A stretch of 64,000 nucleotides of DNA from Deltaproteobacteria bacterium (GTDB taxonomy: Bacteria > Desulfobacterota > Desulfomonilia > UBA1062). Each line of letters starts with the position of its first letter. Position 1 is the stretch's first letter. A program made the translations under genes and the position numbers. The notes beneath the pieces are model-generated. The model was given only the letters and a program-made list of their open reading frames with translations, did not search any database and was not told the origin of the DNA. The stretch spans positions 24,919 to 88,918 of the forward strand of contig JAGOOG010000011.1 of NCBI GenBank assembly GCA_017992605.1, in the 5' to 3' direction. Below, one piece after another: positions 12,533 through 45,025 of this stretch.

Positions 12533-14074
12533 TCAGCGAGGACGACGTCCAGTCAGGAATCCCCGCATCCCCAGGAGCCACAGGAGTGCGAAGTACAGAG
12601 CCCCTCCGAGAATGACGGCAGCAGCCAAGAGCCCGCCAGTGGCAGGACTCAGCCCCGACTCCCATACCTCCATGCGGGCAAAGGGCACCAGGACCACCCC
12701 CATTATCGCAGACGCGACGAGCATCTTGCCGACCTGCTTGCGGTGCTCTCCGGTCATGCGGATGCCCGATCTCAGGACATAGCGGTGCTGGATGAACAGC
12801 TGGACGAGGACGGAAAGGCTGCTGGCAAGGGCTATGCCCGCGTGCCGCAGGCACGGCATGAAGATGAGGCAGAACAGCACGTTCGCCGCCAGGGATACCC
12901 AGGATATGTTGACCACCACCTTTGCCTTCTGCATGGCGTAGAGGGCCTGCGTCTGTATCCGCGTGTAACCCACGGCCCAGAGGCTCAACCCGTACATCTG
13001 CAGCGCATACGCCGATGCGAGGGTATCTGCGTAGGTAAAGGCCCCCCGCATGAAAAGCACGGCGAATATGGGTTTTGCCAGAACAACGGCGCCGACCGTG
13101 GCGGGTATGGTGAAGAGGAGCACGGAAAGCACGCCGCGCCCCATGAGAAAGGAAAAATGCCCTGTGTCCATACGTGCCGAGGCAGAGCTCATGGACGGCA
13201 GCATCACGTTCCCCACGGCAAAGGCGAAGACCCCCAGGGGGAGTTCGAGAATCCTGTTGGCATAGTAGAGGTAGGACACGCTCCCCTGGGCAAGGAGCGA
13301 TGCGAGCAGGGTCCCCACGAGCACGTTGATCTGGTAGATGGACGCCCCGATGGCTGCGACACCGACCAGGCGCACCACCTTCCGGACACGGGTTGAACGG
13401 AATTTCCTGAGGAATCCGATGGGCACACCCCGCCTCTTCAGCGGAGGTATCTGCAGGAGAATCTGTGCGACTCCACCTGCGACCACCCCCCATGCCAGGG
13501 CGTCTGCCGGCGACGGGATCAGGGGAAAGGCGACATGCAGGACAACAGGAACGCCGATCATGAAGACGTTCATGACGATGGGGGCTGCAGCAGGCATGGC
13601 GAAATGCCCCAGGGAGTTGAGGATCCCCATGAACAGGGCGGCTATCCCGATGAGCATGATGTAGGGGAACATGATGCGGGTCAGATGCACCGTGGTGTCA
13701 AAGACCGGGAGATGGAGGAAGCCCGGTGCGATAACCGTCACGAGGACCGGCGCTGCAATCTCGCCGATCAGCACGATGACGGTGAGCGCCACGAACATGA
13801 GGGTGAGGACCTCGCGGGCCATGCGGTATGCCTGCTCCACGCCCTCTCGTTCCTTTACCTCGCTGAAGACGGGTACAAAGGCCACGCTCACGGCACCCTC
13901 GGCCATGAACCGCCTCAGCAGGTTCGGAAGCCTGAAGGCGACGACAAAGGCATCGGCAAGGGGACCCGCGCCGAGCAGCCAGGCCATGACCATGTCACGG
14001 ACAAAGCCGAGGACGCGGCTGATGGCGGTGAGGCCGCCGACCGTGGCAACGTTCTTCCGGAAGCCATCCCTCAT
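12533..14074 (-). CDS. murJ: Lipid II flippase MurJ (MviN)
   Basis: MurJ moves lipid II across the inner membrane for peptidoglycan synthesis. The 513-residue protein is almost entirely membrane helices (about 14), with the family N-terminus (NVATVGGLTAISRVLGFVRD), FRLPNLLRRFMAEGA, and conserved charged residues in the cavity helices. The length fits. It starts 45 bp downstream of the DUF1573-type gene, so the two could be co-transcribed. No clear terminator is seen after its stop. Confidence 0.95.
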   Translation of the reverse strand: MRDGFRKNVATVGGLTAISRVLGFVRDMVMAWLLGAGPLADAFVVAFRLPNLLRRFMAEGAVSVAFVPVFSEVKEREGVEQAYRMAREVLTLMFVALTVIVLIGEIAAPVLVTVIAPGFLHLPVFDTTVHLTRIMFPYIMLIGIAALFMGILNSLGHFAMPAAAPIVMNVFMIGVPVVLHVAFPLIPSPADALAWGVVAGGVAQILLQIPPLKRRGVPIGFLRKFRSTRVRKVVRLVGVAAIGASIYQINVLVGTLLASLLAQGSVSYLYYANRILELPLGVFAFAVGNVMLPSMSSASARMDTGHFSFLMGRGVLSVLLFTIPATVGAVVLAKPIFAVLFMRGAFTYADTLASAYALQMYGLSLWAVGYTRIQTQALYAMQKAKVVVNISWVSLAANVLFCLIFMPCLRHAGIALASSLSVLVQLFIQHRYVLRSGIRMTGEHRKQVGKMLVASAIMGVVLVPFARMEVWESGLSPATGGLLAAAVILGGALYFALLWLLGMRGFLTGRRPR

Positions 14075-14118
14075 GTCAGCAGAGGTTGTCAGAATCCAGC
14101 TCGGACAGAGTCACTCTG

Positions 14119-14853
14119 TCAATCACCCACGACCGATGCCCTCACCTGGACTGTTTTCACCTTGAGTCCTTCCAGGTTGGTTTCGAACTGCAAGAGCCCG
14201 AGGAACCGATCATCCTTGCGCAAGGGCTTAAAACTCACCGTAATCGATGTTGCTTTTCCTTTTTCGAGCATGATGTTCCCGTTGTGCGATATCGAGAGCA
14301 GCGTATCCGGGAAGGCGGAAACCTTCGACAGCATGATCGGCCCGTTACTTTTGTTCGTTATGGTCACCTCTCGGGTATTGACTGAGCGGGGTCTCACCGT
14401 CCCGAAGTTTACCACCTGAGGGTCTATTCTGAGGATATCAACTACCTTAAGATTCACGGAAAGTCGGATGACCGCTGCATCAGGATCGTTCGTCTCGACC
14501 TCGACACTCTTCGTGAAGGGATCCCTGCCCCTGACATATTTCGTCGGAACGGTCACGACGACCTTCTGCGTCTTCCCCGGCTCAATCGATGTCCTTCCGT
14601 CCTCGATCTGCCGCCCCCCCGGGACGGTCACCTGCGCCCCTCAACAGGGTTTGGGCTTGATGAGGAGGTTCCTGTCTCCGATATTCCTGAACATGAATTC
14701 ATGGGTGACATCCATGCCCTCGGGGACTGTCCCGGCATCGTACACGGTCTTCCCCACCTGCACCCTGGGAGATGCGTGGCATGAGAGCTCCATGAGCACG
14801 ATGATTGTCAGGCTCAGGATAAACATGCCTGTATACCTTGAGGTTTTCACCAT
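14119..14853 (-). CDS. DUF1573-family protein, probable selenoprotein (in-frame TGA at 14641-14643)
   Basis: Reading the single TGA at codon 71 as selenocysteine gives a 244-residue exported protein. The start at 14853 has GGAGG 7 bases upstream. Residues ~8-27 form a signal peptide; then VYDAGTVPEG and HEFMFRNIGDRNLLIKPKP match the DUF1573 fold, where the family normally has an SCGC redox motif. Here the sequence is Pro-Cys-Sec-Gly-Ala, so Sec takes the place of the first cysteine. The frame is open for 70 codons before and 173 after the TGA, including a second Ig-like repeat. A hairpin follows the TGA at SECIS distance. The alternative is a nonsense-mutated pseudogene. The redox partner and role are unknown. 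murJ follows by 45 bp. Confidence 0.65.
14611..14643 (-). promoter_or_regulatory. Bacterial SECIS-like hairpin after in-frame TGA
   Basis: Immediately 3' of the TGA (minus strand) is CCGUCCC (14627-14621), loop GGG (14620-14618), GGGGCGG (14617-14611): a 7-bp stem with one G-U pair. Twenty nucleotides separate the TGA from the loop, and the loop begins with G. Known bacterial SECIS elements lie within the coding region with the apical loop roughly 16-37 nt after UGA and a G at the first or second loop position, so this fits. The hairpin overlaps coding sequence, as expected for bacteria. Confidence 0.5.
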
Positions 14854-14965
14854 GAATCCACCTCCGTTTTCCGCTAGCATAAAATATTTCCCATTTCCAG
14901 AGGGTATTTGGCCATCTCTCTGCGAACCGGTTGACTTTTCAGGCTCCGCAGCATACATCTTACGC

Positions 14966-16105
14966 ATGCGCGGCAAACTTGAACACCCCAGAGGACTTAT
15001 CGAACTCATCTCAGTGGAAGTCGAGCGTATCGACACCGAATACCGAGAACTCTGGCTGAGCTTCGAGTATACCTGCCCGGGCGGCGAATACAAGTCTGCA
15101 ATGGTGCTGCCCATAAGCAATTCCAAGGAAATGGCGAACTTCTTTTTCAAGGAACTCATCAGCGAGGCCAAGCATCTTTCCGAAATAGAGAAGAACGAGG
15201 CACTGAGCGTGGGCCTGTATGTGGCAAACAAGACCGACACCATGCTTCCCATCAAGAACCTGTGCCAGCGTGTCATCGATGCCCTCAATGCAGATGGCGA
15301 CCTCCAGGAGAACAGGGAGTTCATCGACCTGTGCACCTCGGGTTTCCACTTCAAGGACGGCACAAGCAGCCTCAGCTCGAAGGGGTTCGAGGAGCGCTTC
15401 AAGATATTCATGAGCAGGGCCACTCAGAAGATGTCCCAGGGGTACTACACCATAGCGGCGGATGATCTCGAGAAGGCCAATGTCCTGTGCTCCACGAGCC
15501 CCCTGATCTCCAAGCTCATCGGCATCTGTCACCGGGAGCTGGGGCACCTCGACCTTGCCCTGGAGATGTTCAACCGGGCCATGGACCTGGGCGACAAGGA
15601 GAAAGAGACCTACCTGTACCTCTCCGAAATACATTTCTTTCTCAACGACATGGAGCAGGCGTACGAGATCCTCGAAAAGATGCTCCATGAGCACAGGGAT
15701 GACATCAGGGCCCTCGTCGAGCTTGCGAACATCAACTATCAGATGGACAGGGAGTACCTGCCCCTCCTGGACAGGGCATATGCCCTCGACACGGAGCAGA
15801 CCCGGGACACCATCCTCCAGACCTTCGTGTTCAAGAAGGTCGGAGGGGGCAGAAGAACGAGGATATCCATCGGGGATGCGGCCGGTCTCCTCGGGATACC
15901 CGAGCAGAGTATCAGACAGCTGGTCCTCTCCAACAAGATCCCGGTGAGGGCCTTCCCCGACAACGAGGAACTGATACTGGACGAAAACGAGCTCAAGGCC
16001 TGGGCTCATGTATACAGGAGATACAAGCTGCTGCAGGATGAGATCGAGAGAGTTAACACTCAGCAGGGAGGGGATAAAAATCAGGGCATGGCTCTACTTT
16101 CCTGA
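14966..16105 (+). CDS. TPR protein with C-terminal helix-turn-helix
   Basis: About 379 residues. An N-terminal ~130-residue unrecognised domain is followed by tetratricopeptide repeats (~150-290), including YYTIAADDLEKAN, GHLDLALEMFNRAMDLGDKE and MEQAYEILEKMLHEHRDD. It ends with a MerR/excisionase-like HTH segment (ISIGDAAGLLGIPEQSIRQLVLSNKIP) and a basic helix. TPRs bind protein partners and the HTH suggests DNA binding; a scaffold or regulator role is inference. The start is uncertain: the ATG at 14966 has no good Shine-Dalgarno site, and a TTGACT-N17-TACATC promoter-like pair lies directly before it. The hydrolase gene begins within its 3' end. Confidence 0.65.
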   Translation: MRGKLEHPRGLIELISVEVERIDTEYRELWLSFEYTCPGGEYKSAMVLPISNSKEMANFFFKELISEAKHLSEIEKNEALSVGLYVANKTDTMLPIKNLCQRVIDALNADGDLQENREFIDLCTSGFHFKDGTSSLSSKGFEERFKIFMSRATQKMSQGYYTIAADDLEKANVLCSTSPLISKLIGICHRELGHLDLALEMFNRAMDLGDKEKETYLYLSEIHFFLNDMEQAYEILEKMLHEHRDDIRALVELANINYQMDREYLPLLDRAYALDTEQTRDTILQTFVFKKVGGGRRTRISIGDAAGLLGIPEQSIRQLVLSNKIPVRAFPDNEELILDENELKAWAHVYRRYKLLQDEIERVNTQQGGDKNQGMALLS

Positions 16106-44584: not shown

Positions 44585-44660
<76 letters not shown>

Positions 44661-44673
44661 AAATCCTGACATC

Positions 44674-44750
44674 TGGTACGCCCGGGGCGACTCGAACGCC
44701 CGACCTGCGGATTCGAAGTCCGACGCTCTATCCGACTGAGCTACGGGCGC
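44674..44750 (-). tRNA. tRNA-Arg(UCG)
   Basis: 77-nt cloverleaf. Acceptor GCGCCCG pairs with CGGGCGT (one G-T), discriminator A, encoded CCA. Anticodon loop CTTCGAA gives TCG (Arg, CGA). The outermost anticodon-stem pair (T-C) is mismatched; the other four pair. Confidence 0.95.
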
Positions 44751-44766
44751 ATCCGTCATTCTCGTG

Positions 44767-44843
44767 TGGGGTGAGTGAAGGGGATCGAACCCTCGGCCAC
44801 AGGAGCCACAATCCTGCGCTCTACCATCTGAGCTACACTCACC
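44767..44843 (-). tRNA. tRNA-His(GUG)
   Basis: Minus-strand tRNA with acceptor GTGAGTG/CACTCAC, C73 discriminator and the genomically encoded G-1 (44843) that marks tRNA-His. Encoded CCA. Anticodon stem CAGGA/TCCTG, loop TTGTGGC, anticodon GTG. Confidence 0.97.
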
Positions 44844-44853
44844 ATATATTCTC

Positions 44854-44930
<77 letters not shown>

Positions 44931-44946
44931 CCACGACGCATCCTGC

Positions 44947-45025
<79 letters not shown>

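Follow-up and report, generated by a model that had tools for sequence, protein, structure and literature searches.

Known DUF1573 selenoproteins and related systems

The first description of a DUF1573 selenoprotein family with the motif UGC is said to be the Olavius symbiont paper of 2007. This family, OS_HP2, is already in print (PMC9312934, PMC13188914, and PMC2398784), which amends the initial annotation of this DNA, to which no established DUF1573 selenoprotein family was known but which did not exclude one; the protein described here nevertheless belongs to a different subfamily. It is encoded in a stretch of 64,000 nucleotides, referred to here as the window, from a bacterium of an order of the former Deltaproteobacteria. 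Like the members of OS_HP2 (NCBIfam NF041425), the window protein has a DUF1573 Ig-like domain with its predicted selenocysteine (Sec) at the same alignment column, but OS_HP2 proteins have a Cys two residues after Sec, whereas the window protein has an Ala there and a Cys directly before Sec (C-U-G-A). Against NF041425, which has a cutoff of 100 bits, the window protein scores 49.6 bits and further proteins of the order's clade (L028, L038, L039, L042, and L043) score 59.6 to 72.6 bits, all of them below the cutoff, in contrast to the U-G-C paralogues L045 and L046, which score above it (110.2 and 116.4). In an unrooted tree of 73 rows, built with the motif columns kept in and Sec read as Cys, the 28 rows of the order (25 with Sec and 3 without) form one side of a split supported at 100/99, with the remaining 45 rows on the other side; 18 of the U-G-C rows make up a group that has a 100/99 branch to itself. 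Given the subcutoff NF041425 score, the separate clade, and the presence of C-U-G instead of U-x-C, the window protein is, as far as its sequence tells, a DUF1573 subfamily distinct from OS_HP2. DUF1573 selenoproteins as such are known in their UGC form; the C-U-G type was not found in a literature search whose coverage did not extend to the original UGC paper or to Haft and Tolstoy 2025, and a full-text search returned nothing joining a PCUG motif with a selenoprotein or MurJ with DUF1573.

Three further systems are close enough to be compared. DUF1573 proteins with the motif SCGCT share the domain and the alignment column with the window protein and differ from it by having Cys-x-Cys without Sec. 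Animal thioredoxin reductase carries a C-terminal Gly-Cys-Sec-Gly, and its Cys-Sec pair can form a selenenylsulfide. The window protein resembles it in the adjacent Cys-Sec pair followed by Gly, a likeness that we use for a comparison of mechanism only: animal thioredoxin reductase is a flavoprotein with its motif at the C-terminal end, whereas the window protein carries it in an internal loop of an Ig-like scaffold, and Pfam gave no match to the flavin or pyridine-nucleotide domains of thioredoxin reductase in it. Finally, the predicted fold is held in common with HYDIN/VesB/ASH/MSP-like Ig domains, in which we know of no Cys-Sec motif.

A predicted selenoprotein gene with an internal TGA

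The predicted DUF1573-type selenoprotein gene occupies positions 14119 to 14853 on the minus strand and runs from an ATG to a terminal TGA, comprising 244 codons plus the stop. Its sole internal TGA (14641 to 14643, minus strand) is codon 71, the predicted Sec codon, which lies between Cys70 and Gly72 and is flanked by 70 open codons before and 173 after it, confirming on the minus-strand frame the intact gene with a single in-frame TGA that had been described from the sequence. A ribosome-binding-like site, GGAGGT, is present in the sequence ahead of the ATG (14860 to 14865, minus strand), and a scan for promoters and terminators gave nothing that exceeds chance. The read-through protein of 244 residues matches Pfam DUF1573 (PF07610) with 60.6 bits versus a cutoff of 26.1, in agreement with the family named in the initial annotation. 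For the part after the TGA, comparison with three relatives from the same genus gave dN/dS values of ∼0.25 to 0.33, at dS values (1.5 to 1.7) that are near saturation.

Residues 1 to 28 (14770 to 14853, minus strand), as read by eye, likely form the signal peptide that had also been claimed for this gene, and residues 2 to 24 are helical in the predicted model. This model of the read-through protein, in which Cys stands for Sec, has a mean pLDDT of 91.5 and contains two Ig-like domains. The first of them, residues 29 to 131 (14461 to 14769, minus strand), holds residue 71 and the adjoining Cys in a loop between the strands at 63 to 67 and 74 to 76. The fold of the model resembles HYDIN, MSP, and PapD-like domains, a likeness that gives no information on function. 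In the protein database searched, the gene appears mostly in part, as was expected of an annotation that would split it at the TGA: 15 of the 17 matches are downstream pieces of this gene or its relatives, 158 to 172 residues long. The list of open reading frames of the window shows positions 14119 to 14631 as a separate frame of 170 residues with a GTG start at 14631.

Conservation of the TGA codon and the C-U-G motif

A six-frame search of 24 genomes of the order, from 10 genera, identified a relative with one internal TGA at the codon-71 column in every genome (24/24). The 25 full-length genes that we aligned from the order all have TGA at this column, and the codon is common to 10 genera at 27 to 56% protein identity. 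The search for TGA or Cys at codon 71 that the initial annotation had proposed thus found TGA throughout the order and, as described below, Cys in homologues outside it. The motif, first noted as Pro-Cys-UGA-Gly, is C-U-G in 22 of the 24 genomes ([PRG]-C-U-G-[AV]), mostly PCUGV or PCUGA, with R or G instead of P before C-U-G in L035 and L041. The other two genomes (G001 and G002) have H-T-U-G-V, without a Cys adjoining Sec, showing that the vicinal Cys-Sec pair is not essential in all members; these lone-Sec proteins suggest that Sec would be the essential residue and the Cys a helper. In the alignment of the order, Cys70 and position 71 are the only nearly invariant Cys/Sec columns, and H51 is the only nearly invariant His. 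Close paralogues without TGA in the order carry DCGCGG (L039 and L208), TCTCGG (L043), or SCESCNG (L042), odd Cys motifs that are possibly losses or rearrangements of Sec inside the clade, and more distant ones carry DCGCT (L209) and ACCGT (L210). A few weaker TGA-less matches from the order search (in G006 and G013) were left out of this reading of motifs.

Elsewhere in the phylum, the codon-71 column is the first Cys of [SAT]CGCT in all 14 Cys homologues examined, and in the sister family of the class it is the first Cys of [SDT]CGCT in 10 of 10 examined; 17 of 18 sister-family genomes had a match, with no TGA among the sister-family matches listed. A search of 395 genomes, with no more than seven candidates scored per genome, yielded at least 63 TGA homologues outside the order. 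The 63 listed were all read: 62 have U-G-C and one has U-A-C (L188), with no C-U-G among these matches. Rarer C-U-G cases outside the order may exist. Three in-frame stops from this search that had looked odd (L205 to L207) are ordinary gene ends. Some members of the order have separate U-G-C paralogues as well (L045, L046, and L198 to L204), and all nine of these were read as U-G-C.

Ahead of the motif, most of the order's rows lack one residue, and the order's paralogues with C-x-C align their second Cys with the Sec column. Given this one-residue gap and the paralogues that have their second Cys at the Sec column (L039, L208, and L043), C-U could alternatively have arisen from C-x-C when the middle residue was lost, with Sec replacing the second Cys. 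In L034 and L035, which have no such gap, Sec falls opposite the first Cys, and we favor the reading in which Sec took the place of this first Cys.

A conserved hairpin downstream of the UGA

Bacterial SECIS elements are hairpins located just downstream of the UGA, with a G early in the loop. The window gene has a hairpin of this kind (CCGUCCC-GGG-GGGGCGG; 14611 to 14627, minus strand), with a stem of 7 bp and a GGG loop that lies 20 nt after the UGA, as had been noticed from the sequence. Taken alone, however, the hairpin is not more stable than expected by chance in this G+C-rich stretch (z = −1.13, with 29 of 200 shuffles as good), and neither is the shorter piece (z = +0.42; 134 of 200 shuffles as good). 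Under an energy criterion, 23 of the 25 genes of the order have a hairpin whose loop starts 19 to 20 nt downstream of the UGA; L026 and L034 lack a hairpin at the common place, and that of L027 has only 4 bp. A value of −5 kcal/mol or lower is reached at 28 of 29 Sec sites, versus 13.3% of 5,288 overlapping control windows from the same genes and just 2 of 17 Cys forms.

In the 25-row alignment, 87.4% of the hairpin cells pair, compared with 30 to 56% for slid versions of the hairpin. Compensatory change was assessed with five covariation measures in all, in shuffle tests that related rows inflate: 16 cells are changed on both sides, a count that none of 500 shuffles reached (mean of the shuffles, 4.3). 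Two measures are weaker: 5 of the 7 stem pairs are changed on both sides (7 of 500 shuffles as high), and further pair types in the stem do not exceed the shuffled values, 96 of 500 being as high. RNAalifold, unaided, recovered six of the seven stem pairs, and a search of Rfam gave no useful match. At the level of sequence, the hairpin has the features of a bacterial SECIS element, and its signal beyond chance lies in its conservation, not in the stability of the single sequence.

Selenocysteine machinery

Of the selenocysteine genes that the initial annotation had named for a search, three were found in this genome (G000): selB (329 bits versus a cutoff of 242), tRNA-Sec (selC; 72.6 bits versus a gathering score of 47, anticodon TCA), and selD (373 bits; G000 contig C24:130880-131806, L153). 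The selD gene carries an in-frame TGA of its own, read GAGUACK, which makes it a second predicted selenoprotein gene of this genome. Searches of this draft assembly for the remaining gene, selA, by family and by a protein from the same genus, came back empty, and the 2.6 kb ahead of selB showed no selA either, so that one of the conditions which the initial annotation had set against its own proposal holds in part. The selA gene is present in 17 of the 24 genomes of the order and missing in 7 assemblies, three of which are 98 to 99% complete (G000, G012, and G007); the TGA genes are kept in all. Two genes from the selA neighborhood of G014, which belongs to the same genus, one of them adjacent to selA and one two genes away on the other side, were also not found in G000. 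We take the absence of selA from G000 as a probable assembly gap; the absence of these two genes fits a missing stretch without proving it, since an empty search result is uninformative. Archaeal-type Sec synthesis by SepSecS as a substitute for selA was rejected, with a match in 0 of the 24 genomes in a search whose control was positive in two archaea as well as two bacteria.

Support for the original proposal, a DUF1573 selenoprotein whose Sec occupies the place of the first Cys in the SCGC motif, comes from the presence of TGA throughout the order, the alignment of Sec with Cys, the covarying hairpin, and the Sec machinery, and we regard insertion of Sec at codon 71 as highly likely.

Linkage to murJ

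The lipid II flippase gene murJ (12533 to 14074, minus strand; MurJ, 365.7 bits), which is essential in E. coli, starts 44 nt past the selenoprotein stop codon. A murJ gene lies directly downstream on the same strand in 23 of the 24 genomes, and at the codon-71 place the murJ-linked gene of each of these 23 carries TGA, with no instance of a Cys codon. The selenoprotein gene is probably cotranscribed with murJ. The exception is G008, which has two full-length copies with no murJ match in the surrounding DNA examined; its C-U-G genes stand in tandem (L041 and L026 on contig C96; L154), with a third copy cut by the contig end. Around 31 non-C-U-G loci that we checked, SCGCT Cys homologues included, there was no match to murJ (within flanks of up to 1.5 kb for most). 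MurJ itself was considered as a thiol substrate and rejected: among 19 aligned MurJ rows, two of them fragments, no Cys is shared by all, the maximum being 9 of 19 per column, so that MurJ is not an obvious thiol substrate. A small palindrome, CAGAGTCACTCTG, is located at positions 14109 to 14121, beside the selenoprotein stop codon and before murJ.

Proposed function and alternative explanations

The account that we consider probable is that the TGA is read as Sec in a DUF1573 protein that is probably exported and in which Cys70-Sec71 would likely serve as a periplasmic thiol/selenol redox center. The tRNA-Sec/SelB complex would recode the UGA via the hairpin, and the signal peptide would export the protein. 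Sec71 would then act as the nucleophile and Cys70 would resolve it as an eight-membered-ring selenenylsulfide, similar to the Cys-Sec pair of animal thioredoxin reductase, a role that would take the place of the Sec-x-Cys pair found in the DUF1573 selenoproteins already described. Given that residue 71 and its Cys lie in a loop of a confident model and that Cys-Sec pairs can form a selenenylsulfide, we favor periplasmic redox chemistry for this center, by analogy and with chances that appear about balanced. More tentatively, and with more doubt than expectation, we propose that within this one order of the former Deltaproteobacteria the resolving Cys of a periplasmic DUF1573 protein may have shifted from a place two residues behind Sec to the one immediately ahead, which would have placed a Cys-Sec-Gly vicinal selenenylsulfide center, like that of animal thioredoxin reductase, on an unrelated Ig-like scaffold, in an operon with murJ that would link the redox state of the envelope to cell wall synthesis.

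Retention of Sec in the two H-T-U-G genomes where the adjoining Cys was lost would also be expected if the protein, still a selenoprotein, used Sec71 and Cys70 to bind a metal or metalloid such as copper or mercury in the periplasm, without thiol redox chemistry. The C-x-C and C-x-x-C motifs of the Cys paralogues fit this idea, the nearly invariant H51 could serve as a ligand, and several cataloged prokaryotic selenoproteins are metal binding or mercury related. We nevertheless consider it unlikely: other Cys or His residues do not form a conserved cluster, H51, Cys70, and position 71 being the only nearly invariant ones, and none of the six window neighbors scanned falls into a metal transport family, one of them being a cytochrome c assembly (heme) protein.

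Two further explanations turn on the TGA itself. The conserved position of the gene, immediately before murJ and in the same orientation (23/24 genomes, with a gap of 44 nt here) and the constancy of TGA in place of a Cys codon in those genomes would suit a selenium-dependent switch, in which low selenium leads to a stop at codon 71 and to less expression of murJ, the protein being secondary. This is improbable, since purifying selection acts on the 173 codons that follow the TGA and these encode predicted domains, arguing that the full protein matters, and since G008 keeps two full-length copies with no murJ match in the DNA examined. Least credible of all is a pseudogene or a pair of genes in which translation truly ends at the TGA and the frame of 170 residues from the GTG at 14631 is a gene of its own. 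Gene calling agrees with such a split, both in the database matches and in the frame list of the window, but the sharing of the TGA by 10 genera at the protein identities given above, the purifying selection after it, and the covarying hairpin all speak against it, as does the fact that the downstream piece would be without the signal peptide and without part of the first Ig domain. If the selenoprotein with a Cys-Sec redox center is the true reading, a whole order would have a selenoprotein which gene callers split into two pieces, with an active-site chemistry unlike that of the described DUF1573 selenoproteins; U-x-C, C-U, and lone-U centers would offer a natural comparison on one fold, and a selenium-dependent protein would be set beside the cell wall gene murJ.

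Other genes of the window

On the other side of the selenoprotein gene lies a divergent TPR-repeat gene (14966 to 16105, plus strand), which is found beside the selenoprotein gene in 21 of the 24 genomes and was not found near those of G008, G009, and G010. Beyond it follow genes for a hydrolase and a siroheme-synthase-like protein (both named by eye), a cytochrome c assembly protein gene, and hemA. Farther along the window, five tRNA genes (Lys, Arg, His, Arg, and Pro) are clustered on the minus strand at positions 44585 to 45025.
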